From NCBI GenBank assembly GCA_017445015.1, contig JAFSVL010000026.1, positions 1 to 38,235 on the forward strand: a stretch of 38,235 nt of DNA, in the 5' to 3' direction. Shown in pieces: positions 213 to 21,794 of this stretch (position 1 is its first letter; each line of letters begins with the position of its first letter). This DNA comes from Bacteroidales bacterium (GTDB lineage Bacteria; Bacteroidota; Bacteroidia; Bacteroidales; UBA932). The notes below the pieces were generated by a model. The model did no database searches. It saw only the letters and a program-made list of their open reading frames with translations, and was not told the DNA's origin. Both the position numbers and the translations under genes were made by a program.

Positions 213-3200
213 TTACTGCGCAAATCCTATGTTCGCCGGAACCAAGGTAGGATTGGACGAATAGGGTTCGCCGACATAGCGAAAGTAATTGTCCGCAGTG
301 AGCGGCACCGTATCCCAGGTACCGCCGTTATAACGCCCGACGACGCCATTCACGCTGCAATTGCTGAATACCGCCGCAGCCTGCCGGCAGCGCCCGTAAA
401 GGACACCGCAATAATCCTGGTCTGCATCCATCTTGACGGCATCGGAAATAATGGATGCGCCTATGCTGCCGCAGTTCTTCACGGTCACGTTGGCATGATT
501 GACAAGGCAGATCACACCGGCTACGGACGCGCCGCCTGAACTGATCAGGTCACCCTTGTTGATACAAGCGTCCAGGACCGAGCCTTCTGCCGCCACACAG
601 GTAATATTGCCGATACGGAAGCCGGTTCCCCCGGTAAAGTGCACATCGGCATTATTGACGCAGTTCTTGAGCAGGGCATAGCGGTTGGCCGTAGAAACGA
701 TGCCGGAGGTACGTCCGGCGGAACTGTAGATGACGCCGTCGTTGGTGCAATTCTCAATCGTAACCGTCTGGGTATTGTTCTGATTGCTCGCGAATCCTAC
801 GACTGCGCCCAGCATGACACCGTTGGCGCCGTTGCCCTTGTTGTTACCGCATGTAAACGACTGTTCCGCACTGCCTATGGCACCTGCGTTGTAAAGGTTG
901 GAAAGGGTTGCAGGAACGGAACCGGCAATGACGAATCCAACGATTCCTCCGGCCATGATACGTCCGCCGGCAACGTTGTTGGGCAGCGAAGACGTACCTC
1001 CTCCGGTAATGCTCGCATAAGTCTGCACATTATCGATATCCACGCCCATGGCAAGTCCGGCAAGCATTCCGAAGACCCCCGAAACCGAGGTAGAAATGTT
1101 CATGGAGCAGGTCTCGTCGAAGATGACGTCCTTCACGGAAGCCCCGTCGCCAAGACCGCCGAAGAGGCCCCATGCCCCCGCAGCCACGTCAGGGGTGAAG
1201 GAGAGATGCAGATTCTTGAATGAATGGCCCTTTCCGTCGAATGAACCACTGAACAAATATCCGCTCGCCACGGCCGAATTGTGTGCCCAGGTAGGCATCG
1301 TACACGCCCCGATGGGAGTCCAGTCGCCAATGGAAGAACAGTCGATGTCATTCTCCAGCGTCACCTCGGCCTTCATGGCCGCGGCATCACCCGAATTGAC
1401 CCTTTCCGCAAAGGTGGCGAGGTCTCCAGCCGAAGAAATCTTGATGACGTCCGCTTCAGGTTCCGGTTCATCTCCGCCGCCTTCGCCCGCCATATCGGTA
1501 ACCTCATAAGGCTTTGCAATCGCATAACGCGCCGCCTTGAGGGCGATGGGGGCGTTTGCATCGGTCACCGCCGTCGTCCCGGCCGCCGTAGAAGAGTAAC
1601 GGAAGCTGTTTCCAGTCATCGTCACATTGCCGTTGTAAGGGCCTATTATCGTCTCGAAAACGGTACAGGATGCACCGTAACGGGCAAGACCGTAATCCAT
1701 GTGATATCCGTCGCGGGTAAGTCCCATATCGTTGTTCAGGCCTGAAGTCCTGAGGTTCTGCAGCATCGCTCCGGTGGAGATGATGCCGTCGAAGTCGCAT
1801 TCCTCCATCACTTTCCGGCCCTGGGCAGCGATGACCGTCCACATTCCCGACGTATTGGAGAAGGGTTTGGTCACGTTCTGCGCCTTGGAGAGGTCGTGAT
1901 AGGCCTGTGAAAGGATATAATACAGTTCAGGAGAAGCACCCAGTGCGGTCTGCGCATCTCTCACCTTCTGTACCAGGCCCTGAACGGCCGCCTTTTCATC
2001 GGCGGTCCAGCCCCAAGCCAGCTGACGGCCGGTATGTTCCTGGATGGTCACGATATCGAATTTCGCACCTGTGGCCACCTGCGCAAGGCTCTTTCCGGAA
2101 ATGTCCGTCCATGAAGTCTGGCCGGGATTGCAGAGATAACAGTGATAATCCGTCGCTGTCGCCCAGCCGGAGTTATATTCGGGAACGGTACGCCCGCCAT
2201 AATACATGTGCACCAGCTGGATTCCGTTCAGGCCGGCTGCGTGCAGGATGCCGGGAAGGTGCTCCACGGCGTCCTTTGTAAAGCTGTTGCCGATGAAGAA
2301 GATACGGAAATCCGCATCGACGTCCAAGTCGGGATCGGGCTCGTCTTCACCGGTCTGGATATCGTAGGTGATGTTGTTGTAACTGCCGTTCGCGTTGCCC
2401 TGCCTTCCGAGGTAACTTATCTTGTTAGCTTCGCTGTAAAGGTCGTACTGCCAATCTCCGTTATTATACTTGCCCACGCGTCCGGAGGCGACGCCTCCGT
2501 TCCAGACGGCGGCAGTATTCACATAGCCGAAGAACACGCCGCGGTAATCGCTGTCCGTGATGATGCGTCCATAATTCTCACAATCGGTATAGGTTCCGGC
2601 ATTGGGCAGGGAGAGGATGCCTCCGCAACGTCCGGCGGTGGTGGAGACCAGATCGCCGTAGTTCTTGCAGGAAGTAATGGTGGAGCCGTTGGCGCACATG
2701 CAGGTGATGTTGCCCGGACGCGAGCCGCCACTGGTGGCGAAGGTGTTCAACTGGTCACCGCGGTTTTCGCAAAGCACGATGTCCGTGCAACTGTTGGCCA
2801 CACCGACGATTCCGGCAGAACGGGCCACGGCGGAGTTGATGTCTCCGTAATTGTTGCAAGACGAAATCGTGTTGCGGAAGGTCCCGGTGGACGGGGCATT
2901 GGCAAAGCCCACGATGCCGGCAATATGAATGGCGGTGGCACCGTTTGTCTGGTTTGCGGTGTTCGGGGCGTTGATTTCTCCGTAATTATGCACGCTGTCC
3001 ACCGTGCAGCCGCGGTTCCTGGCATACATTCCGCCGACAAGCGCCATGTGCAGATAACCTGTGGCGGAACCGCCGTAGGTCATTGGTGCATAGCTGGTTA
3101 CATCGCGCACGTCAGCATCGTACAGCACGCCGGCAATCATCCCCGCGCTGAGCGAAACGGAAGAATTGACCGTAAGGGAGCAATTGTCCTCGATGACGAA

Positions 3201-4283
3201 GTTCTGCACGATGGCACCTTCGCCGAGGTATCCGAACAATCCGCAGTGCCGGCCGGCGACAATCTCGTCGCAGACCAGGTGCAGGTTCTTGATATGGTGC
3301 GCGTTGCCGTCGAATTTACCGGTAAAGGCATGACCTTCGGTAACGACAGGGTTGTAACTTGTCCAGGGTGCGGTGGCATTTCCGACCGGAATCCAGTTTT
3401 CCACTTCGGCAAAATCGATGTCGGCGAGCAGGTTCACCCAGCCTTCCGCATTCTCCCAGCGGGCAATAGACGTGCCGGCATTGACAGCGGCCGAGAATTC
3501 GGCAAAATCCGCCGCATCCGCAATGCCGTTCACCTTCCAGGTCACCGCGGGCATGGAGCGGAGCTGCCCGGCCTCAAGGGTACGGGGCCCCATCTCGCGC
3601 GTCATGATCTCATCATTCTGGTCTGTCACGATGACCCTGATGCCCGCAGGATACTCTCCTGCAGGAACCGGCAGATAGAGGACCAGCGGTTCAGCAAGGT
3701 TTACATTGCAGTTGACGGTCAAGGACTTGTCCGCCTCTGCATCGGAGGCGCCCGTGAGGGCGAGCGTCTCGTAATCAATGCTAAAGTCACCGGTTATCTG
3801 CTCTCCGCCAAGCCCGGCCAGCACCACATTTTTGACAGTGGTCTCCCCAGTACCCGCCACCGTTATCTTCAGCATGGCGGTAAGCGAGGAGAAATGCAGG
3901 TCTCCGGTCGATTCGGAGCGGCCGCCCAGGGGCACGACCTGCGAATCGCACGCGCGTTCCCTGGGCAGGGAAAGCGTCTGCGCGTCTTTATAGATAGATG
4001 CGGGATACACGCCCTCGTAGGGAGGGGAGAGAAGTGCGTCAAAGACAAAGTTGCCAACTTCTGCGGCAGTCGCAAGCGGTTGGGATGCCGCGCCATTGAC
4101 GACGATGGCATCGCCCGCCGTCCAACTCACCTTGACCCCATTGATGGCCGTACGGCTGTCGAATTCCGGAAGGGAAACCCGGATGACGCTCCCCTCATCC
4201 GGTTGCGGTTTTTCCTGCGTACAGCCCGGGGTCAGCCCCAGAGCCGCACAAAAAGCCACAAAAAACAATACAGACTTTTTCAT
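213..4283 (-). CDS. Surface lipoprotein: fimbrillin-like N-domain, GLUG beta-helix, DUF4886 (SGNH-like), second GLUG beta-helix
   Basis: 1356 aa. Residues 1-21 are a lipoprotein signal (LTPGC, Cys21) followed by an acidic stretch of the kind linked to surface export. Residues about 30-250 look fimbrillin-like (VSWTAGDAIVVNG; closing LEAGQLRSMP). About 255-640 are GLUG-type repeats of the pattern CxNxGxI...GGIxG, predicted to form a beta-helix. About 655-930 are a DUF4886 domain related to SGNH hydrolases: it opens FFIGNSFT (candidate nucleophile Ser near 667) and carries RDGYHMD near 861 as candidate Asp/His. About 945-1356 are a second GLUG block. The start lies 1 base after the stop of the upstream gene (TGATATG), so it is the last gene of the operon before the IS. 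Likely an outer-surface glycan-binding protein with an esterase/deacetylase-like activity; the substrate is unknown. Confidence 0.8.
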   Translation of the reverse strand: MKKSVLFFVAFCAALGLTPGCTQEKPQPDEGSVIRVSLPEFDSRTAINGVKVSWTAGDAIVVNGAASQPLATAAEVGNFVFDALLSPPYEGVYPASIYKDAQTLSLPRERACDSQVVPLGGRSESTGDLHFSSLTAMLKITVAGTGETTVKNVVLAGLGGEQITGDFSIDYETLALTGASDAEADKSLTVNCNVNLAEPLVLYLPVPAGEYPAGIRVIVTDQNDEIMTREMGPRTLEAGQLRSMPAVTWKVNGIADAADFAEFSAAVNAGTSIARWENAEGWVNLLADIDFAEVENWIPVGNATAPWTSYNPVVTEGHAFTGKFDGNAHHIKNLHLVCDEIVAGRHCGLFGYLGEGAIVQNFVIEDNCSLTVNSSVSLSAGMIAGVLYDADVRDVTSYAPMTYGGSATGYLHMALVGGMYARNRGCTVDSVHNYGEINAPNTANQTNGATAIHIAGIVGFANAPSTGTFRNTISSCNNYGDINSAVARSAGIVGVANSCTDIVLCENRGDQLNTFATSGGSRPGNITCMCANGSTITSCKNYGDLVSTTAGRCGGILSLPNAGTYTDCENYGRIITDSDYRGVFFGYVNTAAVWNGGVASGRVGKYNNGDWQYDLYSEANKISYLGRQGNANGSYNNITYDIQTGEDEPDPDLDVDADFRIFFIGNSFTKDAVEHLPGILHAAGLNGIQLVHMYYGGRTVPEYNSGWATATDYHCYLCNPGQTSWTDISGKSLAQVATGAKFDIVTIQEHTGRQLAWGWTADEKAAVQGLVQKVRDAQTALGASPELYYILSQAYHDLSKAQNVTKPFSNTSGMWTVIAAQGRKVMEECDFDGIISTGAMLQNLRTSGLNNDMGLTRDGYHMDYGLARYGASCTVFETIIGPYNGNVTMTGNSFRYSSTAAGTTAVTDANAPIALKAARYAIAKPYEVTDMAGEGGGDEPEPEADVIKISSAGDLATFAERVNSGDAAAMKAEVTLENDIDCSSIGDWTPIGACTMPTWAHNSAVASGYLFSGSFDGKGHSFKNLHLSFTPDVAAGAWGLFGGLGDGASVKDVIFDETCSMNISTSVSGVFGMLAGLAMGVDIDNVQTYASITGGGTSSLPNNVAGGRIMAGGIVGFVIAGSVPATLSNLYNAGAIGSAEQSFTCGNNKGNGANGVMLGAVVGFASNQNNTQTVTIENCTNDGVIYSSAGRTSGIVSTANRYALLKNCVNNADVHFTGGTGFRIGNITCVAAEGSVLDACINKGDLISSGGASVAGVICLVNHANVTVKNCGSIGASIISDAVKMDADQDYCGVLYGRCRQAAAVFSNCSVNGVVGRYNGGTWDTVPLTADNYFRYVGEPYSSNPTLVPANIGFAQ

Positions 4284-4284
4284 A

Positions 4285-7200
4285 TCAATTTTTTGATCTT
4301 AATAACAAATAGGACATACAACTGCGTTCGCCCTTCCAGTCGCAGGGGCTGCTGACGATGGAGCCCTTGCCCTGGGAAGACCGCCAGACCCACATGGCGG
4401 AGGACCCCCCGCCATCCATACGGGTGACGGACCAGCCGCCGAGCTTGGCGCCGATCTTATACATCTCGTAGCCCCTGACACCGAGCGAATACCATTTATT
4501 GCTATCAATCTGGCGTCCGTCGATCTCCACTATCCACACCTTGGTGCCGTCCCGGCTGACCACGGGGAAAGTCATGGGATCATATTTTGAATGCAGGCTC
4601 GCCGAAGGTCCGGGTGTATTGGAAGCATCCCTTCCGTCGGTCATCAGCTGATACATCGTGGAGCCCATCATGGTAATCGGCCTGGAAGCATCTCCGTCAA
4701 CGGAAATGTCACATTTGAACTCTACGGTATCCCCCACCTTGACCGACGACCAGGAGGACGCGGCGGCTCCGGACAGGGCGATTCCGATCTGATTCTTCGC
4801 GCTGAGGTACGGAAGGGTTGAAAGCGGCGTCGTGCGCCCGTCGGCAATCCGGGTCACCCGGGCCTGCGCATATCCGCAATTCACTTTCATGCGGGACAAA
4901 GTATATTCACAGATCACATACAGCACGTTCGGCGCCATGGGATTCTGCAACGAAGTATTGGACGAATGCGGAATCTTGACATATCGCGATGTATAGAGGT
5001 TGATCGGCGCCACCGCCGGCGAAGCATGCCGCATCGTGGTATCGTTTATCGTATAATAAGGATACTCCGCGCCGTTCCAACGCAAGGTGCCCGTAAAGGC
5101 CTTCTTTCCGCAAGACGCGGTTCCGTCGTTGAATACGGTAAAGCCCCACCTGTGATTTCCCAGGCTTGCGACCACTGAAGGATTGTTGATGTAAAGAGGT
5201 TCCCCGTCCTCCACATGGAATCCCCGCAGGATTCCGGCTTCGGAATCGAAGAATCCGAGATTGGTACCGGCAAGAATCCCCTGCCCCGCATTACGGCGGC
5301 GGTTGCAGACCATCGACAAGGTTTCCCTCAACACGAATCCTTCGTACAGATGGTCATTGTCGCGCCCGTTGGGATTGGGCATGAGATCATCGGCAAGCGC
5401 CGTCGCAAGTTCTATGGCCGGGCTGCTCAAATCAATTTCGAGCGCATGCATGTGACGCGGGACGTTCTTGAACGAATAATGGTGATACACCGCCCCGGTG
5501 GCAAGGTTCAGCCGCTCGACCTCGGTCCAGTCGTAATACGCATCAAGGGTCCAGTCCGTCCTGTTGTCCTCGGGATCGAACTTGTTCTTGTAATCGTCGC
5601 GAACAGCATTGTAGAATGTCGAAGGCGCGGCCGCCGAAGGGTCGGAGGAAAATTTCGAATATTCATCCACATAGCCGCCGCCGATATTCGAGGAGAAATT
5701 GCCCTTCACCCTGTTATATGAACAGCCCCATGCAGGACCGTACTGGGAGCCGTCGGTCTTCCCCAGGATAGCGCCCGTATTGGTGCAATTCCTGATGACC
5801 CCGGAATTGTATCCTACGAGTCCCCCCTGCTGGCACACCACGGGGACAAGGACGTTTCCGTTGTTCGTACAGCCCTCGTTGACGGAAGTCCCGCCTAAAG
5901 TGGAATTCCCGTCGACATAGCCCGCCAGGCCTCCGATGATAAGGTCGTTCCCATAAGCCGTATTGCCCTTCGTCTCAAGGGCGGCATTGTTCACGACATT
6001 GCTCAGGGTCGTGCCCAGGGCATAGCCGACGATACCTCCCGCACGCAGTTTCGAAGGATTGCCGGAGAAGACCACCGAACTGTTTTCATCCCCGAAAACG
6101 AGGTCGCTGATGGTTATCGCCCCGGTATCTCCGAAGAGGCCGGCATGGGTATATTTCCCCGTATCTATCGTCCAGTTCACATGGGAAATCCTGTGCCCCA
6201 TCCCCTTGATATTATATTCCAGGGGGTGGGCGCTGTTCCCGATGGGCACCCATTCGCGGATGGACGAAGCATCGATGTCGCAAAGGATCTGTACGTCATT
6301 TCCCACCAGGAATGCCGAGGCGTCGCCGCCGGTATTCACGATATGGGCGAAGGCAAGCAGGTCTTCCATGTTCTCGATGCCCTTCCAGACGGGTTTGCTC
6401 CCGTAGATGATGTTGGAAGAGGTTACATTCACAGCGGCGGACGAGTGATATCCCACATAGTTGAAATAATTGCTCCCGTTCACTCCGACCATAGCATAGT
6501 TGCCGTTATTGTACGCCCCGACGTCCCCGCTGCCTATGCATGCAGTAAAGCCTGCAGCAAGATTGCACTGCTGGAAAATGGTGCCGCGATAGGTCGTTTC
6601 GTCCGTAATGACGCGCCCGTAATTGGCGCAGCGTACAAAATTGCAGCTTGCATGGTTGACAAGGCTCACGATGCCTCCGGCACGAGCCTTGGTAGAGCAG
6701 ACGACATCGCCGTAATTGGTGGAATTGATGACTTCTGAACCGGCTCCGGAAATGCAGGTAATGTTGCCGATACGGCCGCTTCCGCTTACCGGGAAGGCAT
6801 TGTAATTATTCCCATGGTTTTCGCAGTACTCGATGACGGTATAGCGGTTTGCCGCCGCTACGATTCCCGAAGCACGGCAGGCCTTGGAATCAATGTCCCC
6901 GTTATTGGTGCAGTGGAATACGTGCACCCTTTCTGCAGAAGAGAGGTCATTAGAGCCGAAACCGAGAATTCCGGCCACCTGCACACCCGTGGCACCGTTT
7001 TTGGCATTATTGCCATTGGAGCCGGAAACTTCTCCTTCGTTTACGAGATACTCAAGCCGGGTCTCCCCGTCCCGGGCAAACGCAAAGCCGACAAGGCCGA
7101 GCGTCTGCCTCATGTTATCCGCCGATGAGGGGGTGACGGAGAACGGCGCATAGTTGGTCACGTTCAGCACGGAAGCGTCAAACACGACACCCGCCACGAC

Positions 7201-8364: not shown

Positions 8365-8367
8365 CGG

Positions 8368-9342
8368 TTACAACTTAATGACCATCCACACGGGATAATG
8401 GTCGGAGGGATGGCAGAAATTATGGATCGCCTTTCCGCGGGGATCCCGCGACGATGCCGCGAATCCGTCATAAAGCACATCCGCGGACTTTACCCGACGA
8501 AACAGGGCGGGAGTGACATACATCATGTCAATCCTGCGCCCGGACACCGTGCTCTTCTTGAATTCACCCGGGAACAGACGCTCGATCACGTCGATATAGG
8601 GCGTATTGGTACGCACATAATCATGTACCAGAAAAGCCGGATCCGCCGGATCAAGGGCGTAATGGAAATTGTCGGCCGATGAAATGGCGTTGAAATCACC
8701 CGTCATCAGCCACCACTGGTTTTCCATCCCGGGAACGGTTCCCGCGGTTTGAGAGCAGATATACTTTATCTCGGCGGCACGGAAGTAGTCGCCTCCATGC
8801 TCCGCAGCACTCTGTTTCTGGTCCTCGGCCATGTATGCGTAACGCTGGGGCCAGGTATGCAAGGTCACGATATTGAGTTCCCTGCCCCTGCCGAGGTCCG
8901 CCACCGCCCAACCGGCGCCGTGCACCACCAGCATGTCCTCCCCGTTCCCGGTGACGCGCTTGACGATGTGCAGCGGGTACTTCGAGGTAATCACCTGGGG
9001 AAAGGTATCGCGCTTGCCGCACACCAGGGTGTACTTGTGTCCATAACGCGCCGCGAGCAAATCCCAGTTCCACGGGAGATACTGGTCCTCCGGCATCTGC
9101 ATCTTGACACTGGTATCGGTCAGATAGCGGGATTCCGCCTCGCACCAGATACAGATATCCGGATCCAGGTCCTTTACATAGGCCACAAACCGGTCATAGT
9201 TGCCGCCCTGGTCGGACCACATCCCGTTCTGGATATTCCAATAGAGTATTTTTAAATCTATCCCTGCCTTACCGCGGCAGGGCAGGGAAAAGATTGCAAA
9301 TACGGCCATCAGGGCGGCCAGGTAAACGGAAAGACGCCTCAT
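8368..9342 (-). CDS. Secreted endonuclease/exonuclease/phosphatase (EEP) family hydrolase
   Basis: 325 aa from the ATG at 9345-9343, or 324 aa from the second ATG at 9342, which is the start given here; the two ATGs are adjacent. It has a signal peptide (hydrophobic about 6-22, then LPCRGKAG), so it acts beyond the inner membrane; the Cys lacks a proper lipobox. EEP landmarks are all present: LYWNIQNG (Asn37), the metal-binding CEAES (Glu69/71), MTGDFNA, RRIDMMYV and the terminal CHPSDHYPVW (Asp315, His316). Family members cleave phosphodiester or phosphomonoester bonds in nucleic acids, inositol phosphates, sphingomyelin and similar, so the reaction type is clear but the substrate is not. 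The first ATG overlaps the stop of the 42-aa peptide gene (ATGA), implying translational coupling. It sits between two phosphodiester-glycosidase genes. Confidence 0.85.
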   Translation of the reverse strand: MRRLSVYLAALMAVFAIFSLPCRGKAGIDLKILYWNIQNGMWSDQGGNYDRFVAYVKDLDPDICIWCEAESRYLTDTSVKMQMPEDQYLPWNWDLLAARYGHKYTLVCGKRDTFPQVITSKYPLHIVKRVTGNGEDMLVVHGAGWAVADLGRGRELNIVTLHTWPQRYAYMAEDQKQSAAEHGGDYFRAAEIKYICSQTAGTVPGMENQWWLMTGDFNAISSADNFHYALDPADPAFLVHDYVRTNTPYIDVIERLFPGEFKKSTVSGRRIDMMYVTPALFRRVKSADVLYDGFAASSRDPRGKAIHNFCHPSDHYPVWMVIKL

Positions 9343-11101: not shown

Positions 11102-11112
11102 AATATTGGACA

Positions 11113-13551: not shown

Positions 13552-13553
13552 GG

Positions 13554-15392
13554 TCAGTCATCAAATGACACGCCGTCTATCCAACCCGGATTCTGCGAAA
13601 GGCTGCCATGCGTCGCCTGACGCTGGTCCGCAGGAATGGGCCAGAGATAATCGCGGCCTTCGTTCCATACGTACTCTTCTCCGGCATAATAGGTAAGGTA
13701 GCCCCTGTCACCCTCGGAAAGGGTATAGTTGCCGCCGATTTCAATCACGTTGGTGGCCGGTGCCGTTGTGGAAGGCTTGGAGCCTCTCCAGAGACAGAGG
13801 TCCACCTTGCCGTCACCGTCAAGGTCATAGTCTCCAAGCGCCGGGAAATATACACCGCGCGAACCGCTGGTAGCCTTAAGGGTAAGCCACTCACCTTCCT
13901 TCCAGCGGAGAAGGTCCCACTGGCGGAAACCCTCGCAGAAGAGCTCCACCGTGCGTTCGCGGCGAACTTCAAGGATCGCCGCCTTCTGGCTGCCCCTGGC
14001 ATTGGGATAATACTCGCTCATAAGTGCGTCTTCCACAGCCGGCACGCTGCCCATTGCGGGCATCCCGACGCGGGCGCGGATGACATCAATGGTCCGGCGT
14101 ACGTCTTCGTCGGTCAGCTGCCCCAGTTCGGCCTTCGCCTCGGCATAGTTCAGCAGGACCTCGGCATAGCGGATCAGGGGATAATCCGTGGTGGAAGTGG
14201 TTGCGCCCTCATGGCTGGCATCGGAGATGAACTTGATAATCCTGTAGCCGTTATAGGTACGTTCAAAACTCAGCTGCTCCGGGGCAGTCCCGCCAAGGGC
14301 CACATAGGACGGACCGTGCAGCGTCTGCGCCATGCGTGGATCGCGCCTCGAGAAAGCGTCCTTGTAAGAGAGTGTCTGCCAGCCGGCACGCTGCTGGATG
14401 GGCGTGCCGTCGCTCTGCAGGTAATGGTTCACCATGCGGTTGGTGGCACTGCGGCGATGGCTCTTGTAATCAAACTGGATTCCATGACGCACCAGCACAT
14501 CCACGCTGTAACGGCGGGAAAGGATGGTCTCGTCGGACTCGGCGTCCTCAAGCACGAAATATTCCCGGTAGGAAGCGTCTGCAGCCTTCGAGGCAAGACC
14601 GAGCGTGTTGCCTGTATAAAGGGCACGTCTGCCCAGGAGTATTTCAGCGGCGGCCGCCGCCTCGCGGAGGAACCACTCCGAAGAAATCGTGACACCATCG
14701 AAAGTCTGGACATCCTGGGGCACATACTCGCTCCCTGCGTGATACTTGCGGAAGGTTCCCTCAAAGAGCGCAGCACGTGACTTGAGCGCCAGCGCGGCAT
14801 CCTTCGAGACATGATAGACGGGATCGGAAGCCCACTTTTCAGGAAGCAGTTCATACGCTTTATCCAAGTCCTGCATCACCTTCAGCATCACGTATCCGCG
14901 GGGATCGCGGGGCTTGTTGAGGTCCTCCTTGTCGGAAGAACCTATCACATGGTCATACCAGGGCATGTCACCCCACTGGCGCACCTTCTCAAAATAGAAC
15001 CATGCACGGAAGAAATAGGCGACGCCGTCATACATGCCCTTCACCGCCGCATCCTGACAGCGGTTGTTCTCCAGCAGATAATTGATGTTGCGCAGCGGCT
15101 TCCATGTATCCGAGGTCCATGTCTTCGAAGAGGGATTGAGGGTCCCCCGCTGGATTCCGTTCAGGGTACTGGCCGAACAGTTGTCGTCCGCATTCAACTC
15201 GGCCAGGGTGGCCGCACCGGGAAGGACGCTGTTATAGATATCATTGGCCCACAAATCCAGTTCCTTGGCCGTGGAGAAGTAAGTATCCGGAGAGAGCGAG
15301 GTCTCCGGGGAAAGGGTCAGAAAATCCTTATTGCACGAGACGGAAAGGCCCAGTGCGAACAGGCAGGACAAGGGTATAATAATCTTTTTCAT
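13554..15392 (-). CDS. susD: SusD-family glycan-binding outer-membrane lipoprotein
   Basis: 612 aa. Lipoprotein signal with SVSC (Cys20) followed by NKDFLTLSPET, the classic SusD opening. SPDTYFSTAKELDLWANDIYN and the later LIRYAEVLLNYAEAKAELG, VRRERTVELFCEGFRQWDLLRWKEGE and LWPIPADQ are standard SusD/RagB landmarks at the expected positions. Length is within the normal 500-650. It caps the SusC transporter immediately upstream (5-base gap) and captures oligosaccharide or other glycan fragments on the cell surface. The glycan cannot be read from the sequence; neighbouring phosphodiester-directed enzymes suggest a phosphorylated polymer. The name denotes the family, not starch specificity. Confidence 0.95.
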   Translation of the reverse strand: MKKIIIPLSCLFALGLSVSCNKDFLTLSPETSLSPDTYFSTAKELDLWANDIYNSVLPGAATLAELNADDNCSASTLNGIQRGTLNPSSKTWTSDTWKPLRNINYLLENNRCQDAAVKGMYDGVAYFFRAWFYFEKVRQWGDMPWYDHVIGSSDKEDLNKPRDPRGYVMLKVMQDLDKAYELLPEKWASDPVYHVSKDAALALKSRAALFEGTFRKYHAGSEYVPQDVQTFDGVTISSEWFLREAAAAAEILLGRRALYTGNTLGLASKAADASYREYFVLEDAESDETILSRRYSVDVLVRHGIQFDYKSHRRSATNRMVNHYLQSDGTPIQQRAGWQTLSYKDAFSRRDPRMAQTLHGPSYVALGGTAPEQLSFERTYNGYRIIKFISDASHEGATTSTTDYPLIRYAEVLLNYAEAKAELGQLTDEDVRRTIDVIRARVGMPAMGSVPAVEDALMSEYYPNARGSQKAAILEVRRERTVELFCEGFRQWDLLRWKEGEWLTLKATSGSRGVYFPALGDYDLDGDGKVDLCLWRGSKPSTTAPATNVIEIGGNYTLSEGDRGYLTYYAGEEYVWNEGRDYLWPIPADQRQATHGSLSQNPGWIDGVSFDD

Positions 15393-15397
15393 GACTG

Positions 15398-18300
15398 TCA
15401 GAATGTAATGTCAACACCGAATGAGAAAGTCTTGGAATAAGGATAGGTCACGTCGTAACCCACGGACGTGGTCGCGACTTCCGGATCGACATACCTCGTC
15501 GCCTTCATTAGGGGTGACAGGTAGAACAGGTTCTCGCCGGAGAAATAGATTCTCGCCTTTTCAATGGCCTTGGACTTGAAGGGGATGGTATATCCTATAG
15601 TCAGGTTCTTCAGACGCACATAGGCGGCATTCTGGAGGTAGAAGTCAGATGTGACGATATTGGAGCCGTTGGCCACGCGTCCCCTGATCCTCGGGAAGAT
15701 GGCCTTGCTGTTGTCGGCGCCTTCCGCGTCTGACCAGCACTTGCTCCTGAAATCCGTAGGGATGAAGGTGGGGCGCTGATAGGAATAGAGGCTCCAGAAG
15801 TACGTGGCGTTGGTGTTGGGCATCCAGTCCATCTGGCCCACGCCCTGGAAGAACACGCTCAGGTCGAAGCCGTACCAGCTGAAATCACCCTTCAGGGCAA
15901 AGTTGTAGCGGGGACGGCTGTTGCCGATAATCTCACGGTCGCCGGGATTGTCCACCGTATTGGCGCCGGTGTTGATGATACCGTCGCCGTTCAGGTCCTT
16001 GTAAATGACGTCACCTGCAAGAAGATGCATGTAATCGGGATTCTTGGAGCCGAACACTCCTTTGTTGACTGCCGACGAATTGATGGCGGCCTCGTATGCG
16101 GCAGCCTCCTCGTTGGTCTTGAACAGCCCGTCGGTACGGTAACCCCAGATGTCTCCAAGACGTTTGCCCACATAGTTGTCGCTGATGAGCTTGTCCTCGT
16201 TGGCATAGCGCGTAATATAGGTCACATAGTCTCCGAGGGTGGCCGTGATGCCATAGTAGAGGGGCTTGCCGGCAACGACGACATTGTCCTTCCAGCTCAG
16301 GGCCAGTTCATAGCCCCAGGTGCGCAGGTCCGCCGCATTCTCTTTCGGTGCCGCCTCTCCGTAAACCGCAGGAAGGGTCATGGCCGTGGTCAGCATGTTC
16401 TTGGTGTCGCGGATGAAGAAATCCGCATTAAGGGTAAGCCTGTCGCGCAGGAAGCCCATATCCAGACCGAGGTTCTTGGTAATGACCGTTTCCCAGGTCA
16501 GGGCGGAGGACACCGGGGCGTCCACGTAGGCCCGGGCGGCATTGCTGGTACCGTCAAAGGTATATCCGGAAAGAAGGCCGGTCTTGAGTTCCTCCCAATA
16601 ATAGTAGTTGTCCACCTGCTGGTTGCCGAGCGAACCGTAGGAGAAACGGAGCTTGAAGTTGTTCACATACGGTTTGACGCTTGCCCAGAAAGGCTCTTCC
16701 GAAATACGCCATCCGGCGGAAGCCGAAGGGAAGAAGCCCCAGCGGTTGCTGGCGGGGAAACGGGAAGATCCGTCGTAACGGCCCGACAGCTCGATGAGGT
16801 AGCGGCTCTTCCAGTCGTAATTCACCCTGGCAAAGAATCCGAGCGTGCGGTATGCGCTGTTGGACTGTGAAGCCTTCTCAATTTCTCCGTTCGCCATATT
16901 GATATAGGCGAGGTTGTCGCTCAGGGACCCTTTTTGCTGGATGGTGATACTGCTGGAGTAATAGTCATCGTAGTTGGCGCCGAGGGTGGCGGCTACATGA
17001 TGGCCGTCGCCGAAAGTGTCGTCATAGGAGAAATAGGCGTTGGCTACGCTTCCGTCCTGATAGTAGCGGTACTCGCGGGTATAGTCGTAAACCGAGCCGT
17101 TGGAGAACAGACCGCCCGTCAGGCCGTTGCCTACATACAGTCTCTTATTGACATTGTCATAGGAATTGGGGGTGGGAAGCACGCGGTTCATCATCCGGCG
17201 GTCACGGCGCCTGTAAGAGTAATCGACGACAAAATCGAGACCCTTGTAAATGTGCGCGGTGAGCCTGTTGGTCCAGGTCCAGTAATTATTGGAATTGGTG
17301 TTGCGGTAGATGTCGGTCATGAAAACGCCTGCCCGTCCGCTCATGAGCGGGGATACGGCATCCATGTAACCGGGATACATGGCAACCGTTCCGTCAGGAT
17401 TGTAGGGGACAAAGGTAGGAGACACGTTCTGGGTCAGGTTCCACATGATTCCATAATCGGAACTGACAACCCCCAGGGAGCCGTCCATTTCCGGGAATCC
17501 GCCCCAGTCGTAACTGTTCCGCTCCAGGCTGACATTGCTGGAATATTTCAGCCACTTGGTAATCCTGGCATCCACCTTGCCGCGCAGGGACAGGGCATTG
17601 TAGTTGTCCTGCGCATATCCCGTGAATAGTCCCTTCCGGTAGAGGTAACGGGCCGAAGCATAGTACTGCACCTTGTCGGTACCGCCGCGCACGGTAATAT
17701 TGTGCTCGGTCTCGGGACGCACCTTGTTGAACAGGAAGCTGTACCAGTCGAAGTTGCCCAGATACACATAGGTGTATTTCCCGGTCTCGTCAGGAATCAC
17801 CCACGGACGCTCGGGATTCTCGGTAACGTCGTTCCTTCGCTCGTAGAGCATCTGCATCTGCTCGTCGGAATAGGTCAACGCGTCCACTCCCTGCCAAGTT
17901 CTGTAAAACTCGTTGCAAAGGGTCACATAGTCGTAACCGGTAGTGATAAAGTCCGTGCTGGTGGTATTCATGGAGAACGAAGCGCGTCCGTTATAGGTGA
18001 TTTTCGCTTCACCCTCCGCCCCGCTCTTGGTGGTGATGAGCACCACGCCGGCGGAAGCCTTGGCACCGTAAATCGCGCAGGCGGAAGCATCCTTGAGGAC
18101 GGACACGCTCTCGATGTCATTGGGGTTCACCTGGCTCAGCGACGCCTCGACCCCATCCACAAGGACAAGGGGGGAACCGCTGTTGAGCGACAGTTTGCCG
18201 CGGATATTCACGCTGTACTGCGTTCCGTCAATGGAACCGGACCCGGTGGTAATTACCAGCGAAGGGTCGGCTCCCTGGAGGGCCATCGCCGTATTGGTAA

Positions 18301-18727
18301 CGGGGCGGGCGTTGAGTTCCTTGCCGTCAACCACGGAGACGGCACCGGTCAGATTGACCCGCTTCTGGGTACCGTAACCTACGACGACAATCTCGTTCAG
18401 AAGTGTGTTTTCGCTGTCCATCATGATGGTGAGCGGCATGCGCTCACCCGCACTCAGGCCGACTTCCTTGTCGGTATATCCGATGAAGGAGACCGTGAGC
18501 GTTGCGGGAAGGGAAACCCCGTCGAGGGAGAAGGTTCCGCTGCCGTCGGTGATGGCGTAATTGCGGGTTCCCTTCACGACGACGGAGGCGCCCATCAGAG
18601 GCTCACCGTCGGCATCCTTCACCTGTCCCCTGACGGCCGTGCCGCCCTGGGCGAACAGCGCCGCGGGAAGCAGCATCATCGACAGCATCAATGCCCCCAT
18701 GAAGGAGGAAGAAACAAGTTTTTTCAT
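15398..18727 (-). CDS. susC: SusC/RagA-family TonB-dependent outer-membrane transporter
   Basis: 1109 aa, full length. Signal peptide to about residue 27 (LFAQGG). A carboxypeptidase-regulatory-like domain follows (about 30-115: VRGQVKDADGEPLMGASVVVKG), then the TonB-box region and plug (about 120-235: LNEIVVVGYGTQKRVNLTGAV, VNIRGKLSLNSGSPLVLVDG, DIESVSVLKDASACAIYGAKASAGVV). The rest is the 22-strand barrel with terminal FSFGVDITF. No extra N-terminal signalling domain is present, so it is a plain transporter and not an anti-sigma-linked regulator. It pairs with the SusD gene to import glycan fragments in a TonB-driven manner. It follows the 918-aa lipoprotein gene by 27 bases, an uncommon order because susC usually leads the operon. 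Confidence 0.95.
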   Translation of the reverse strand: MKKLVSSSFMGALMLSMMLLPAALFAQGGTAVRGQVKDADGEPLMGASVVVKGTRNYAITDGSGTFSLDGVSLPATLTVSFIGYTDKEVGLSAGERMPLTIMMDSENTLLNEIVVVGYGTQKRVNLTGAVSVVDGKELNARPVTNTAMALQGADPSLVITTGSGSIDGTQYSVNIRGKLSLNSGSPLVLVDGVEASLSQVNPNDIESVSVLKDASACAIYGAKASAGVVLITTKSGAEGEAKITYNGRASFSMNTTSTDFITTGYDYVTLCNEFYRTWQGVDALTYSDEQMQMLYERRNDVTENPERPWVIPDETGKYTYVYLGNFDWYSFLFNKVRPETEHNITVRGGTDKVQYYASARYLYRKGLFTGYAQDNYNALSLRGKVDARITKWLKYSSNVSLERNSYDWGGFPEMDGSLGVVSSDYGIMWNLTQNVSPTFVPYNPDGTVAMYPGYMDAVSPLMSGRAGVFMTDIYRNTNSNNYWTWTNRLTAHIYKGLDFVVDYSYRRRDRRMMNRVLPTPNSYDNVNKRLYVGNGLTGGLFSNGSVYDYTREYRYYQDGSVANAYFSYDDTFGDGHHVAATLGANYDDYYSSSITIQQKGSLSDNLAYINMANGEIEKASQSNSAYRTLGFFARVNYDWKSRYLIELSGRYDGSSRFPASNRWGFFPSASAGWRISEEPFWASVKPYVNNFKLRFSYGSLGNQQVDNYYYWEELKTGLLSGYTFDGTSNAARAYVDAPVSSALTWETVITKNLGLDMGFLRDRLTLNADFFIRDTKNMLTTAMTLPAVYGEAAPKENAADLRTWGYELALSWKDNVVVAGKPLYYGITATLGDYVTYITRYANEDKLISDNYVGKRLGDIWGYRTDGLFKTNEEAAAYEAAINSSAVNKGVFGSKNPDYMHLLAGDVIYKDLNGDGIINTGANTVDNPGDREIIGNSRPRYNFALKGDFSWYGFDLSVFFQGVGQMDWMPNTNATYFWSLYSYQRPTFIPTDFRSKCWSDAEGADNSKAIFPRIRGRVANGSNIVTSDFYLQNAAYVRLKNLTIGYTIPFKSKAIEKARIYFSGENLFYLSPLMKATRYVDPEVATTSVGYDVTYPYSKTFSFGVDITF

Positions 18728-18754
18728 TGGCGTGCTATTAAATTATGTTTGGAA

Positions 18755-21511
18755 TTATTTATAATAGGCCTCTCCCAACGCGGCCAGCGTGGAGGGAACA
18801 GGATAGGAACAACCAGCGGGAATCTCCCAGCCGGAGGACTGGTATCTCACAGAAGGACTTCCAAAGCTGAGAAAATATGTCTGACCTTTTGTGGAGAAGG
18901 ACTCGCAGAACGCCGCGCTGGTGAGGTTCGCCAGGGTCGATTGGGTAACGTTGACTGCCGTTGCGTTACCGCTGCCTCCAATGGTCTGGCTGTTATTATC
19001 CACGAGATAGTAGTTCTCCGCCATGTAGCCGTAGGGCATTGCCCCGACAAAGCCTCCCTTATTGGATGTTGCCGTGCAAACCAGATTGGCATTTTCCACC
19101 AGTGAGATGTTGTTGCGCACGCGTACCCTGTTGAAATTAGTGGCAACGCTTGCCGTAACATTCCCGGCGAAAACACCCATATAAGGACGGGCACCTGCCG
19201 AAAGTCTCTGGTTCAGACCGATGCAGTTGTCCAGTGCCATATACTGGTCCGTGATGGTTGAGTGTCTCAACATTCGCCCAACGACACCGCCCAGGTTGGC
19301 GGAACCGCTGGTGCGGGTACAGGTGACATCGTTCGCGGCCAGGCAGTCATAGACATACTGGCGGCCATAATCCGCTCCCGCCGTGGTGCAGTACATGAGG
19401 CCCACGATGCCGCCGATGTCATAGCCGGCGCCCGTGACGGAACCCTTTGCGGAACAGGTGTTGAGGATGCCGCTGTACATTTCTCCTGCAATTCCCCCTA
19501 CGCAGTCCTGACCGTTCAGCGTGGCCGATATCGCAGCATTCGAGCGGCATTTTTCCACACGGGGGAAGGCCGAGTTGTTGCCAAGGCCGCCCACGATGCC
19601 ACCCACTTTGGCGCTGCCGCTCACATCGCCCGTATTGACGCATCCGGTAATGGTGCCGGTATAGATGCGGGAAGCAATTCCTCCCATATAAGAGGCCCCG
19701 GCGGTTCCGCCGTCCACTTCTCCGTTATTGGTACAATTCTCAACCTTGGCCGTGGCGCCGTTGACCAGACAGATGATACCGCCGGCATTGGCCCCGCTGC
19801 TGCTCACGCTCACATCACCGTTATTGACGCAGCCGGTCAAGGTGCAGTTGGCGGCAATGATGCAGGTGATTCCGCCGGGTCTGGCGTTTCCTGTCCAGGT
19901 ATTGGAAATTGCACCCTCGTTATTACACAACTCAATCTTTGTCCGGGAATTGGCAGATGACAATATCCCGGCGCAGCGGGCCGTGGCGGCTTCTATGTCT
20001 GCATAGTTGGTGCAGTCCGTAATCTCGTTGATGATGGATGCGGCGCCCGTGTTGCTCAGTCCGGCAATACCGGCCACCTGTACGCTCAAGGCACCGTTTG
20101 TCTCGTTGGAGGAAGACTGCCCGGCGCTTACCTTACCGTAGTTATTAAGGCTGATAATCTGGGAAATCCCCGAGATGGCATCGCCATAGACGTAACCCAC
20201 CATCGCCATCTCCACCCGGCTCGGGGAGCTGTTGACGGGGATGGTCATCGGATAGTAATTGGTCACGTTCAGGATAGTAGAGCCATAACTGACCCCGGCT
20301 ACGGCGCCGGCGTCCATCCGGCCTGTGGGAGTAGCCACCAGTTTGCCGGTATCGCCGTCAGCAGCGCCCAGCGTAAGGTCCTTGACCGTCGCCTTGTACA
20401 GGATGCCGAACAGACCGTAGGAAGAATATTCGGCGGGAGAAGCCGTCATGTCGAGGTTTTTGATGGCATGCCCGCCGCCATTGAACGTGCCTTTGAAGGC
20501 GGGTTCCGTCCAGGTGGCGGAAACCGAACCGGACTCCGTAGGTTCAAACGTACCGTTGCCGATGGGGGTCCAGCCGCTTACGCCGCCGAGGTCCAGATCC
20601 TTTTGCATCGTGACCTCCGCACCCTGGAACCGCGCATTGGAGGCGTTGACGCCTTCAGCGAACTGGAGCAAGTCAACGGGACATCTCAGGGCAATCTGCA
20701 TGACCTGCACAGGGGCTACGCTGCGCAGATTCTTCTTGATGGTGTACTGGGCGCCTCCCGCCCAGACATGATTCCCTTCCGTATTGACCGCTACGGCATA
20801 AGAACCGGCATCGGTCTCGGCTCGCAGGGAAAGGCTCTCCCCTACCGTACAAGGCGGAATCATCATATAGGCGTTTACCACCTTCTGTGCATCGGGAAGG
20901 GCGCCTGAGAGCCACAAGGTATGCTTGAAAGCGTCCGCATCATCAAGATACACGCTGTAAACCTCAGTCACCTCGTCGGGAAACTGGAGACGCATCTGAA
21001 GCACCCCGTTCTGATCTATGCTGCCGCCGTGCTCTTCGGCCCAGTCCGCGGAGAAGGTGATATCGTCATAGCTGTCAACTCCGGAGAGCACTACGACATA
21101 TTCAAGGTGATCCGTGGATGAATTGCCGGCCTGGACCTGCCCGTCGTAGGCGTCGCCCCCAAAAGCGGAGGCTCCGCCGTATGTGATGGTGTACGGACCG
21201 TCGCCGGGCGCGGTACCCGTAAACGTTGCGCTGTGCCCGTCTTCACTGATGCTCTGGGCATCGATGGTAAACACCTGGGTAGTTGCGCCGGAGACCGTCA
21301 GCTGGTCGTCCGCCTGCCACTGAAGGACGGCACGCTTGAAATCATCGGCCTCGGTAATGGACACCCTGCCGGCATCTTCGGGCACGGATACCCGGATGGT
21401 AACGGTTTCTGCCCCTTCCGGCTCTACGGATTCAGGGGATTCAACGGCGCAGGATGCGAAAAAAGACAGCGCGGCAATCGCCGCAAACCAATAAGAATAA
21501 TTACGTTTCAT
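18755..21511 (-). CDS. GLUG-repeat surface lipoprotein preceding susC
   Basis: 918 aa. Lipoprotein signal with FASC (Cys21), then AVESPESVEPEGAE, strongly acidic as in surface-exported lipoproteins. Residues about 35-300 form a divergent fimbrillin-like N-domain (RVSITEADDF..VLQWQADDQLTVSG; YMMIPP). About 305-830 carry GLUG-type repeats (FNGGGHAIKNLDM, GLFGILYKATVKDLTLG, many CTNxGxVxGG units), predicted to form a beta-helix. The last 90 residues lack repeats and resemble no domain I know. No catalytic motif is visible. It lies 18 bases after the 51-aa peptide gene and 27 before susC, so it is presumably a glycan-binding or adhesin-like component of the same surface apparatus. Confidence 0.8.
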   Translation of the reverse strand: MKRNYSYWFAAIAALSFFASCAVESPESVEPEGAETVTIRVSVPEDAGRVSITEADDFKRAVLQWQADDQLTVSGATTQVFTIDAQSISEDGHSATFTGTAPGDGPYTITYGGASAFGGDAYDGQVQAGNSSTDHLEYVVVLSGVDSYDDITFSADWAEEHGGSIDQNGVLQMRLQFPDEVTEVYSVYLDDADAFKHTLWLSGALPDAQKVVNAYMMIPPCTVGESLSLRAETDAGSYAVAVNTEGNHVWAGGAQYTIKKNLRSVAPVQVMQIALRCPVDLLQFAEGVNASNARFQGAEVTMQKDLDLGGVSGWTPIGNGTFEPTESGSVSATWTEPAFKGTFNGGGHAIKNLDMTASPAEYSSYGLFGILYKATVKDLTLGAADGDTGKLVATPTGRMDAGAVAGVSYGSTILNVTNYYPMTIPVNSSPSRVEMAMVGYVYGDAISGISQIISLNNYGKVSAGQSSSNETNGALSVQVAGIAGLSNTGAASIINEITDCTNYADIEAATARCAGILSSANSRTKIELCNNEGAISNTWTGNARPGGITCIIAANCTLTGCVNNGDVSVSSSGANAGGIICLVNGATAKVENCTNNGEVDGGTAGASYMGGIASRIYTGTITGCVNTGDVSGSAKVGGIVGGLGNNSAFPRVEKCRSNAAISATLNGQDCVGGIAGEMYSGILNTCSAKGSVTGAGYDIGGIVGLMYCTTAGADYGRQYVYDCLAANDVTCTRTSGSANLGGVVGRMLRHSTITDQYMALDNCIGLNQRLSAGARPYMGVFAGNVTASVATNFNRVRVRNNISLVENANLVCTATSNKGGFVGAMPYGYMAENYYLVDNNSQTIGGSGNATAVNVTQSTLANLTSAAFCESFSTKGQTYFLSFGSPSVRYQSSGWEIPAGCSYPVPSTLAALGEAYYK

Positions 21512-21529
21512 AGTGTATTCCTCCGCAAT

Positions 21530-21685
21530 TTAAAGTTCATCGAATTCATCTTCATCGACCGGATTGTCCAACATGTCGTGAAGACTTCCCAGAAGAACCA
21601 ACTTCAATTGCCAGAATGCGACGCTGCACTCCGGGGAGGAATACGTCCCTCTCTTAAGTATTGATGGGGGGGTAAAATGACTCAT
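21530..21685 (-). CDS. 51-aa conserved-motif small protein (peptide 1), first gene of the operon
   Basis: The ATG at 21685 lies about 60 bases downstream of a promoter-like box and reads 51 codons to a TAA at 21530, with 18 bases before the 918-aa lipoprotein gene. The peptide contains GTYSSPECSVAFWQLKLVLL and ends in a strongly acidic tail (NPVDEDEFDEL). No signal peptide. It shares with the 42-aa peptide at 9342 the order TYxxP, V, L, LL, S and then an acidic tail, and it fits the loose family of short Bacteroidales proteins near GLUG/fimbrillin lipoproteins. It could also act as a translated leader. Function is not known; reality is supported by the shared motif and position but less firmly than for peptide 2. 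Confidence 0.62.
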   Translation of the reverse strand: MSHFTPPSILKRGTYSSPECSVAFWQLKLVLLGSLHDMLDNPVDEDEFDEL

Positions 21686-21747
21686 AATCAAATACTTACG
21701 TTATTTTTTTAAATAAAACAGACGGTTATTACATTTTATTCCAACCC

Positions 21748-21755: not shown

Positions 21756-21794
21756 TAAAAATTATTAAAAAAATCGCCCAATTTTATCAATAAT

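Follow-up and report, generated by a model that had tools for sequence, protein, structure and literature searches.

A SusCD locus without recognisable glycoside hydrolases as a candidate system for phosphodiester-containing glycoconjugates in a Bacteroidales bacterium

Analysis of a Bacteroidales contig of 38,235 bases (hereafter the window, which is the entire contig; the view stops at base 1 on the left) revealed a SusCD operon rich in predicted phosphodiester-directed enzymes, with a tightly packed sugar-phosphate cassette directly upstream (27805-21795). We are inclined to believe that this SusCD locus serves a phosphodiester-containing glycoconjugate and couples its breakdown to the uptake of an intact phosphorylated product, a reading that builds on the gene content, conserved motifs and recurring gene association observed here. 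A phosphodiester-directed role is well supported by conserved synteny: in 28 of 32 related loci the gene immediately after SusD encodes NAGPA, EEP and/or GDPD occur within the stretches of 23 of 32 genomes, and S1/P1-nuclease and histidine-phosphatase families are found in 3 and 4 of 32. The operon consists of the following features:

213..21511, minus strand: SusCD operon, with SusC, SusD, two NAGPA lipoproteins, an EEP protein, a DUF4886 protein and two unassigned lipoproteins
18755..21511, minus strand: repeat-rich lipoprotein of 918 aa, first gene of the operon, resembling the other repeat-rich proteins; no Pfam family at E<=10
15398..18727, minus strand: SusC (TIGR04056, 822 bits; PF00593, PF07715, PF13715); no STN domain found
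13554..15392, minus strand: SusD (PF07980, E 2.8e-41)
11113..13551, minus strand: NAGPA_B, lipoprotein with BACON (37.8 bits), repeats and NAGPA (PF09992, 59 bits)
9470..11113, minus strand: lipoprotein with BACON (PF13004, 25.6 bits) and repeats
8368..9345, minus strand: exported EEP (endonuclease/exonuclease/phosphatase) superfamily protein (PF03372, 23 bits, cut-off 24.5)
4285..8364, minus strand: NAGPA_A, repeat-rich lipoprotein with NAGPA (PF09992, 36.5 bits)
213..4283, minus strand: lipoprotein with DUF4886 (SGNH-like) between repeats (PF16227, E 2.1e-26; PDB 4i8i, E 1e-12)

All of the components named in the original prediction (SusC, SusD, two NAGPA lipoproteins, EEP and DUF4886) were recovered by Pfam/NCBIfam. 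It had placed the operon at 213..21685; the left end stands, and the first gene starts at 21511 instead of 21685. Both NAGPA lipoproteins belong to PF09992 (NAGPA/DUF2233; 59 and 36.5 bits, cut-off 25), and the DGGGSS motifs reported near 11240 and 4400 were located at 11241-11224 (NAGPA_B) and 4416-4399 (NAGPA_A). The window-type NAGPA is a divergent form of ~430 residues, NAGPA_B having a weak match to PDB 3ohg (E 0.0011); the NAGPA domain of one relative matches human NAGPA (PDB 6pku and others), and the DGR and DGGGS motifs are invariant in 14 of 14 aligned NAGPA domains. We know of no assay of an enzyme of the window's NAGPA subfamily. The EEP protein had been described as exported with all motifs; N37, E69, H163, D217, N219, D315 and H316, which we take to be the metal and catalytic positions, are indeed identical in all 18 aligned sequences, and its PF03372 score of 23.0 bits falls just below the cut-off of 24.5 (36.2 bits for the L028 orthologue). 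A sequence search against solved structures gave no PDB match to it at E<=0.1, and a two-row EEP alignment search of 395 class genomes found the window alone at E<=1e-30, indicating that this EEP subfamily is clade-restricted. The predicted SGNH-like DUF4886 domain agrees with the PF16227 match, its kinship to SGNH proteins being suggested by GNSF/DGYHMD-like motifs, which presumably correspond to SGNH motifs.

The original prediction had also stated that the operon lacks a recognisable glycoside hydrolase or lyase, and Pfam bears this out: scans of the eight operon proteins (E<=0.001) and, more permissively, of the five repeat-rich ones (E<=10) brought up no GH or PL family, and NCBIfam gave no match in six operon proteins at E<=0.01. 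A glycoside hydrolase concealed in the repeat proteins is thus absent at Pfam E<=10 and NCBIfam E<=0.01, searches that would miss a new fold-level family. The name "GLUG proteins" fared less well, PF07581 (GLUG, cut-off 20.5) reaching 19.3 bits in one protein, 9 in another and nothing in three. In terms of a CAZyme PUL, susC and susD are adjacent (a gap of 5 bases), and Pfam/NCBIfam identified no GH, lyase or recognised carbohydrate esterase beside them, DUF4886 being SGNH-like and assigned to no named esterase family. Since about half of the Bacteroidetes SusCD loci have no CAZyme (PMC6499787), such an absence is ordinary.

The original prediction captured the content of the SusCD operon, and its gene list was without the cassette of organophosphate antiporter, NanE and phosphohexomutase, which extends the functional neighbourhood upstream to 27805:

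27861..28733, plus strand: AraC-type regulator, divergent from NanE (PF12833, PF02311)
26999..27805, minus strand: NanE, N-acetylmannosamine-6-phosphate 2-epimerase (PF04131, E 1.3e-48; NCBIfam NF002231, 241.5 bits, cut-off 189)
25647..26996, minus strand: calcineurin-like/purple-acid-phosphatase-like phosphoesterase (PF00149, E 8.6e-13; PF16656 below cut-off)
24718..25650, minus strand: sugar-1-phosphate nucleotidyltransferase-like protein (PDB 3pnn, E 1.5e-91; weak matches to UTP-glucose-1-P uridylyltransferases and GlmU; no family in the Pfam search)
23144..24727, minus strand: phosphohexomutase of the PGM/PMM/GlmM superfamily (PF02878/79/80/00408; best NCBIfam match Arch_GlmM, 175 bits, cut-off 439)
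21795..23147, minus strand: organophosphate:phosphate antiporter of the GlpT/UhpT/PgtP family (PDB 1pw4 GlpT, E 6.1e-44; TIGR00881, 218 bits, cut-off 408)
21512..21794, no strand: intergenic region of 283 bases between cassette and SusCD operon, with a TAnnTTTG-like box 244 bases upstream of 21511

The likely start codon of NanE is at 27736, with a TAACTTTG -7-like box 13 bases before it. The phosphoesterase, probably periplasmic as judged by its twin-arginine-like signal MKRRDFLL, begins with an ATG at 26996, leaving 2 bases and no overlap between it and NanE, and the phosphohexomutase starts at a TTG at 24727 or an ATG at 24706. The AraC-type protein may regulate the locus; its orthologue is also found upstream of NanE in the nearest relative, L051, with one gene intervening. 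Sequence kinship to GlpT/UhpT/PgtP places the antiporter in OPA, GlpT being the nearest solved structure. It could be named neither GlpT (188 of 633 bits), UhpT (172 of 497) nor PgtP (148 of 750), and the UhpC model behaves alike, all lying far below their NCBIfam cut-offs; with such similar scores for GlpT, UhpT and PgtP, the sequence does not single out the transported ester. The NanE/phosphohexomutase/antiporter cassette is the best evidence for a predicted uptake of phosphorylated products.

Comparative analysis showed how far these associations recur. Besides the 28 loci with NAGPA immediately after SusD, three (L022, L029 and L031) start at a contig end and one (L042) has another gene at that position. 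Within the stretches covered, EEP occurs in 21 of the 32 genomes, GDPD in 14 and either of them in 23. The original prediction had proposed a phosphodiester-linked glycan that is taken apart at its phosphate bridges instead of its glycosidic bonds; this is upheld as far as the locus is phosphodiester-directed, whereas cleavage confined to the phosphate bridges would be conjecture, given the unassigned repeat regions, a Gfo/Idh/MocA-family protein beside one such locus (L042) and the GH97, GH109-type protein or GH27 in other NAGPA or antiporter loci of these genomes.

The antiporter was examined separately, with close orthologues defined by >=55% identity (n=30). In 11 of these 30 a NAGPA-family domain lies <=25 kb away, always in the same orientation, and at <=10 kb the figures are 9 of 30 for close antiporters vs 2 of 76 for more distant paralogues (Fisher p=1.6e-4; p=0.004 when four near-identical species are treated as one). 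The NAGPA-near label must have changed six or more times across the antiporter tree, which argues against a single inherited arrangement behind the pairing. When the labels were shuffled 500 times, 35 shuffles reached a count this low, so the label is mildly clustered, no more. At the genus level, close antiporters (E<=1e-150) are present in 11 of 16 genomes with window-type NAGPA and 20 of 84 without it (p=8e-4, kinship ignored). The linkage is limited to the close group, since antiporters of 44-54% identity are unlinked to NAGPA (none of 27 lies within 10 kb and 2 lie within 25 kb). Away from window-type NAGPA, antiporter orthologues are found <=~8 kb from EEP/GDPD relatives in L063 (EEP overlapping the antiporter, by Pfam) and in L064, L067 and L068 (by similarity), and GDPD directly adjoins the antiporter in L032, L040, L060 and L067. 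The antiporter subfamily is rare outside the clade in the class draw (E<=1e-90 in 2 of 257 genomes including the window's own; PF09992 in 46 of 257); among 199 genomes of the family, 26 carry an antiporter at E<=1e-90 and 2 carry type-I NAGPA. Of 395 genomes drawn from the phylum, 4 gave a match to the NAGPA catalytic region, and all three besides the window were partial matches of 32-42% identity. The full five-gene cassette recurs in L051, on a contig separate from its NAGPA locus, and NanE-antiporter-phosphohexomutase recurs in L068; the complete NanE cassette accompanies a NAGPA locus only in the window and L051. Among the extended loci, NanE is found in 1 of 32 and a close antiporter in 9 of 32, while 5 of the 32 genomes have GlcN6P deaminase in their stretch (family check on one).

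A pathway can be proposed in which all enzyme activities, the direction of flow and the substrate are what we infer from the sequences. SusC and SusD would bring in oligomers, from which the DUF4886 (SGNH-like) protein may strip O-acyl groups. NAGPA would cleave sugar-1-phosphodiesters with the phosphate remaining on the aglycone; human NAGPA releases mannose-6-phosphate, leaving the phosphate on the aglycone. EEP (GDPD in relatives) would cleave other phosphodiesters, the antiporter would take the sugar phosphate inward with phosphate moving out in exchange, and NanE and phosphohexomutase would pass it into amino-sugar-phosphate metabolism, while the nucleotidyltransferase may recycle sugar phosphate into NDP-sugars. 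NanE points to hexosamine phosphates as the probable imported product. The most economical candidate substrate would be a polymer or linkage unit built on hexosamine-1-phosphate. Poly-ManNAc-1-P and the GlcNAc-1-P link in wall teichoic acid are examples, since cleavage of a 1->6 phosphate bridge by NAGPA would directly yield hexosamine-6-phosphate; the target may be a teichoic acid or a capsule. A narrower version, catabolism of glycosyl-1-phosphate polymers in which surface NAGPA would free hexosamine-6-phosphates for import by the antiporter and entry through NanE/NagB without a kinase, can be offered only tentatively. If it is true, these gut Bacteroidales would feed on the phosphoglycan envelopes of their neighbours (teichoic acids, sugar-1-phosphate capsules) without a glycoside hydrolase.

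Several observations count against the model. The GDPD product would be glycerol-3-phosphate and not a hexosamine phosphate, the 283-base gap divides the cassette from the SusCD operon, and the whole NanE cassette is rare (the window and L051), with a close antiporter in just 9 of the 32 loci. The near-equal scores of the GlpT, UhpT and PgtP models and the merely mild clustering of the label on the tree also weigh against it.

Phosphorus nutrition is a less probable but live alternative, in which SusCD and phosphodiesterases would free phosphate or small organophosphates and carbon gain would be incidental. The model for it is the set of six PusCD complexes (phosphate utilisation systems) of Flavobacterium, which, in the available part of the report, combine SusCD with phosphomono-/diesterases and with organophosphate transporters of the inner membrane, and are switched on when phosphate is depleted (PMC8115612). 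The periplasmic-type phosphoesterase of the window and histidine phosphatases in 4 of 32 relatives would fit such a role. However, ECF sigma factors in 15 and FecR in 18 of 32 relatives, an STN-bearing SusC in G177 (the one such SusC scanned) and the AraC-type regulator of the window suggest substrate sensing, the organic part appears to be used by NanE and phosphohexomutase, and rumen fluid is rich in phosphate.

A target among phospholipid head groups or glycerophosphodiesters, with inositol phosphates included, is unlikely; it would make EEP a phospholipase C/sphingomyelinase-like enzyme and GDPD with the antiporter a GlpQ/GlpT-like pair. The 14 loci with GDPD, four of them with GDPD beside the antiporter, the closeness of the antiporter to GlpT and the fusions of phytase-type histidine phosphatases to NAGPA in some loci are consistent with it, but NAGPA, the sole constant enzyme, is in a family named for sugar-1-phosphodiesters, oligomeric glycans fit SusCD and BACON lipoproteins, the window shows no GDPD within its bounds, and NanE would have no role on such substrates. 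Nucleic-acid utilisation is highly improbable: EEP and S1/P1 families (S1/P1 in 3 of 32 loci) include nucleases, and the available part of one source proposes nucleic acid as a target for some SusCD loci that have phosphodiesterases and no CAZyme (PMC6499787), whereas NAGPA, GDPD, NanE and the organophosphate antiporter would have no evident role, and no nucleoside/nucleotide salvage enzyme was found among the Pfam-scanned proteins, a subset of the neighbours.

The reading as a locus for a phosphodiester-containing glycoconjugate provides a testable hypothesis for some CAZyme-less SusCD loci, namely that they target phosphodiester-linked glycans, and the logic of NAGPA leaving the phosphate for antiporter import allows activities to be predicted for NAGPA, EEP, GDPD and antiporter proteins that lack an assignment. 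If this is true, phosphoglycans of bacteria or fungi would provide a nutrient niche within the herbivore gut, and teichoic-acid or capsule analysis could draw on NAGPA enzymes as tools.

Among known systems, human NAGPA (the uncovering enzyme) shares the domain family and, as generally understood, the product logic of phosphate on the aglycone, whereas it acts in lysosomal-enzyme maturation and the window form is divergent. The GlpT/UhpT/SLC37 antiporters (PDB 1pw4) are of the same family, and charged positions, whose roles we take to be those of the GlpT residues, are conserved in the GlpT alignment; the window antiporter differs in scoring under every named NCBIfam cut-off. GDPD-family proteins in 14 of 32 relatives and the calcineurin-like phosphoesterase of the window resemble GlpQ and PhoD, a correspondence of fold names that we partly assume. 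These wall-teichoic-acid hydrolases likewise cleave phosphodiesters of a glycan polymer, but, as far as the available text goes, that of the own cell wall under phosphate starvation and without SusCD or NAGPA; calcineurin-like proteins fused to NAGPA are noted there (PMC11488536). The CAZyme-less loci of PULDB, 576 of which were counted, also join SusCD to phosphodiesterases, but in the accessible part of that study they were counted by PF00149/PF01663 and not by NAGPA/EEP, with nucleic acid suggested for some (PMC6499787). The window has the gene content of Pus (SusCD, phosphoesterases and, across the 283-base gap, an inner-membrane organophosphate transporter), and both place SusCD beside phosphoesterases and such transporters instead of CAZymes; Pus differs in its regulation by phosphate depletion and its plant-associated niche, and the available text mentions no NAGPA or NanE and describes endonuclease/exonuclease/phosphatase as an orphan gene (PMC8115612). 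The original prediction knew of no described utilisation locus of this composition, and neither a NAGPA/EEP SusCD locus nor the NAGPA-antiporter-NanE composition turned up among the matches listed from open-licence PMC papers. Thus, judging from the parts of those sources at hand, CAZyme-free SusCD loci and SusCD/phosphoesterase/organophosphate-transporter loci are already described (PMC6499787, PMC8115612), while the combination of NAGPA, antiporter and NanE is apparently new.

Two tightly packed gene sets lie on the minus strand of the window, which is an entire contig of 38,235 bases from an incomplete (79.75%) 2.3-Mb genome. The original prediction described a SusC/SusD locus with phosphodiester- and ester-directed enzymes and no glycoside hydrolase, and overlooked the five-gene set (the cassette) directly upstream of the operon.

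Features of the window (coordinates, strand, description)
21511-213, minus: eight-gene operon, in order repeat-rich lipoprotein, SusC, SusD, NAGPA_B, BACON/repeat lipoprotein, endonuclease/exonuclease/phosphatase (EEP) superfamily protein, NAGPA_A, DUF4886 protein
27805-21795, minus: cassette, in order NanE, calcineurin-like phosphoesterase, sugar-1-phosphate nucleotidyltransferase, phosphohexomutase, GlpT/UhpT-family organophosphate antiporter
29460-31808 and 28730-29482, minus: glycyl radical enzyme with a GCTE motif (30548-30537), presumably of dehydratase type, and its activase; the enzyme scores below every NCBIfam cut-off listed for it
37581-37944, plus: four clustered tRNA genes (Thr, Tyr, Gly, Thr) close to the right-hand end of the contig

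Gaps within the operon are 27, 5, 2, -1, 124, 3 and 1 bases. SusC, SusD, both NAGPA domains and DUF4886 scored above the Pfam cut-offs, as did BACON, and no glycoside hydrolase or polysaccharide lyase was found in any of the eight operon proteins (Pfam, E≤0.001) or hidden in the five repeat-rich proteins (Pfam, E≤10), for which the proposed name GLUG was only weakly borne out. An orthologue of the EEP protein (in L028) exceeded the Pfam cut-off, the window protein itself falling 1.5 bits below it; residues that we take to have metal or catalytic-type roles were invariant in all 18 aligned sequences. In the cassette, NanE and the phosphoesterase, which bears a twin-arginine-like signal, are separated by 2 bases, followed by a 4-base overlap, a 10-base overlap (or an 11-base gap with the ATG start of the mutase) and a 4-base overlap at the successive junctions. 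An AraC regulator gene is divergent from NanE, and TAnnTTTG boxes, presumably of the Bacteroidetes -7 type, precede both gene sets (10 occurrences of the motif on both strands of the window). The nearest relative found (L051, genome G928) has the identical cassette order, after which a similar lipoprotein begins.

Human NAGPA cleaves GlcNAc off GlcNAc-1-P-6-mannose, leaving mannose-6-phosphate. By analogy, the NAGPA proteins would split a sugar-1-phosphodiester to yield a free sugar end and a phosphomonoester on the next residue, and a 1→6 phosphate-bridged hexosamine polymer would give hexosamine-6-phosphate, which is a plausible cargo of the antiporter and, if it is ManNAc-6-P, the substrate of NanE. 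One such polymer, that of meningococcal serogroup A, is given in excerpts of a published report as O-acetylated alpha-ManNAc(1→PO3→6) (PMC12348895). An SGNH esterase would fit the O-acetyl groups of such a polymer, which serves here as a chemical example only, the locus not being tied to the capsule of any particular organism. The wall teichoic acid linkage, GlcNAc-1-P-6-MurNAc, matches this chemistry just as well, and the GDPD proteins of relatives would suit glycerol-phosphate chains. All of these predicted enzyme and transport activities are deduced from protein families.

When named genome contigs were scanned with the NAGPA alignment, 32 loci of the window type (type-I) were found; the titles of their records read Bacteroidales, Bacteroidia or Alistipes. 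Six records name rumen, omasum or reticulum and one horse faeces; many carry RUG numbers, which we take to denote rumen genome sets, and the rest give no source. The gene immediately after SusD encodes NAGPA in 28 of the 32 loci; among the four exceptions, three start at a contig end (L022, L029, L031) and one has a different gene there (L042). Matches were counted anywhere in the extended stretches of 32 genomes including the window, which are mostly metagenome-assembled with loci cut by contig ends, genes being called by simple ORF and codon-score methods and family scans covering part of the neighbouring genes. On this basis, EEP is present in 21, GDPD in 14 and either of them in 23 genomes, the EEP count including a longer, 40%-identical protein past NagB (G947, G949) and a longer upstream protein (G931). 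The contig ends near the locus in seven of the nine remaining genomes (G937, G943, G944, G945, G948, G952, G957); in G935 and G958, both families are absent from the stretch seen. A close antiporter occurs in the stretches of nine genomes, histidine phosphatase in four, S1/P1 nuclease in three, NagB in five, NanE in one, ECF in 15 and FecR in 18, and a search with the SGNH domain alone, used because repeats inflated the count, placed it in the loci of 21. The STN domain is present in the sole ECF/FecR-associated SusC scanned (from G177, a genome of the window's genus) and absent from the SusC of L021, whose stretch contains no ECF/FecR, and from that of the window (Pfam), in keeping with a different regulator of the window locus. 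Several loci have at their edge a second EEP-like protein, which is longer and 34-40% identical (L016:2-2407, L018:2-2425, L113-L115), S1/P1-nuclease-family proteins adjoin GDPD in type-I loci (L039:19054-19815, L032:10792-11625, L110:98-889), and one SusD frame (L023:6996-8834) seems broken, its ORF ending at 8465 and similarity running on to 8834.

Linkage between NAGPA and the antiporter was assessed with 134 NAGPA-family domains (E≤1e-6; up to 13 per genome) and 106 antiporter homologues (E≤1e-30, after joining of two split matches; a small number are fragments) of the 32 genomes; since these were picked for carrying NAGPA, the counts are conditional on its presence. A NAGPA domain lies within 25 kb of 11 of the 30 close antiporters (≥55% identity; found in 24 genomes), co-oriented in all 11, versus two of 27 antiporters at 44-54% identity and two of 49 below 40%, the latter two directly adjacent on the same strand. 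Within 10 kb, the figures are 9/30 for close and 2/76 for remaining antiporters (p=1.6e-4), or 6/27 and 2/76 (p=0.004) with four near-identical species collapsed to one. Across the genus, 11 of 16 genomes with type-I NAGPA have a close antiporter (here E≤1e-150) versus 20 of 84 without (p=8e-4), kinship being ignored, the 100 genomes of one search being taken as among the 101 of the other with non-matching ones partly listed, and several genomes apparently repeating the 32-genome set (identical NAGPA coordinates). On a tree of 33 antiporters, 11 labelled NAGPA-near, this label changes at least six times on well-supported branches (seven in the best tree), so the pairing was gained or lost several times; shuffled labels gave a mean of 9.4 changes, with 35 of 500 as low as observed. 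The window's sister, L051, was labelled "other" owing to its contig end, and long branches were flagged outside the close group. Distant antiporters (32% identical) adjoin a co-oriented NAGPA gene in L081:7827-10587 and L082:8169-11452, and the pairing may thus extend past the close group.

The same parts recur in other contexts. Antiporter orthologues overlap an EEP-family gene (L063, Pfam), lie beside an EEP-family protein (L064, where an SGNH-GH27 protein and a ROK kinase are also present), a GDPD (L067, by similarity) or a cassette-type phosphoesterase (L053), or accompany NanE and phosphohexomutase, EEP-like and histidine-phosphatase-like genes being no more than 8 kb away (L068); other members of the set of 20 antiporter neighbourhoods, among them L055, L056, L058, L065 and L070, have no partner of this sort. 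Fusions of NAGPA with a histidine phosphatase of phytase type (PF00328) occur in L021:1584-3590 (score just below the cut-off), L059:4866-7010 and L075:11967-14030, and a NAGPA-BACON fusion adjoins an antiporter in L066. These partner genes and fusions hint at formation of a phosphorylated product that is subsequently imported or else dephosphorylated. A strict "no glycosidase" reading is opposed by GH97 adjoining the antiporter in L059, a GH109-type protein in L075, GH27 in L064 and a Gfo/Idh/MocA-family gene directly following the type-I locus L042; none of these three GH-type genes lies in a type-I locus. NAGPA-bearing SusCD loci show at least two more layouts (L071, L072 with L066, L076, L078 and L083; L059 with L073, L077, L084, L074/L075 and L080), and L057:8051-10837 holds a tandem pair of organophosphate antiporter paralogues.

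According to excerpts of a survey, 52% of 28,250 SusCD loci are without CAZymes, and phosphodiesterases occur in 576 of 14,713 that lack CAZymes, sulfatases and peptidases (PMC6499787). The Flavobacterium Pus, as far as described in excerpts of its report (PMC8115612), already combines SusCD, phosphoesterases and inner-membrane organophosphate transporters, as in the window. The general kind of locus is therefore known. Among the matches listed from open-licence full-text literature, neither the combination of NAGPA, EEP/GDPD, antiporter and NanE nor its repeated assembly in this clade was found; the new element would be this composition, a variant on the known SusCD-phosphoesterase theme.
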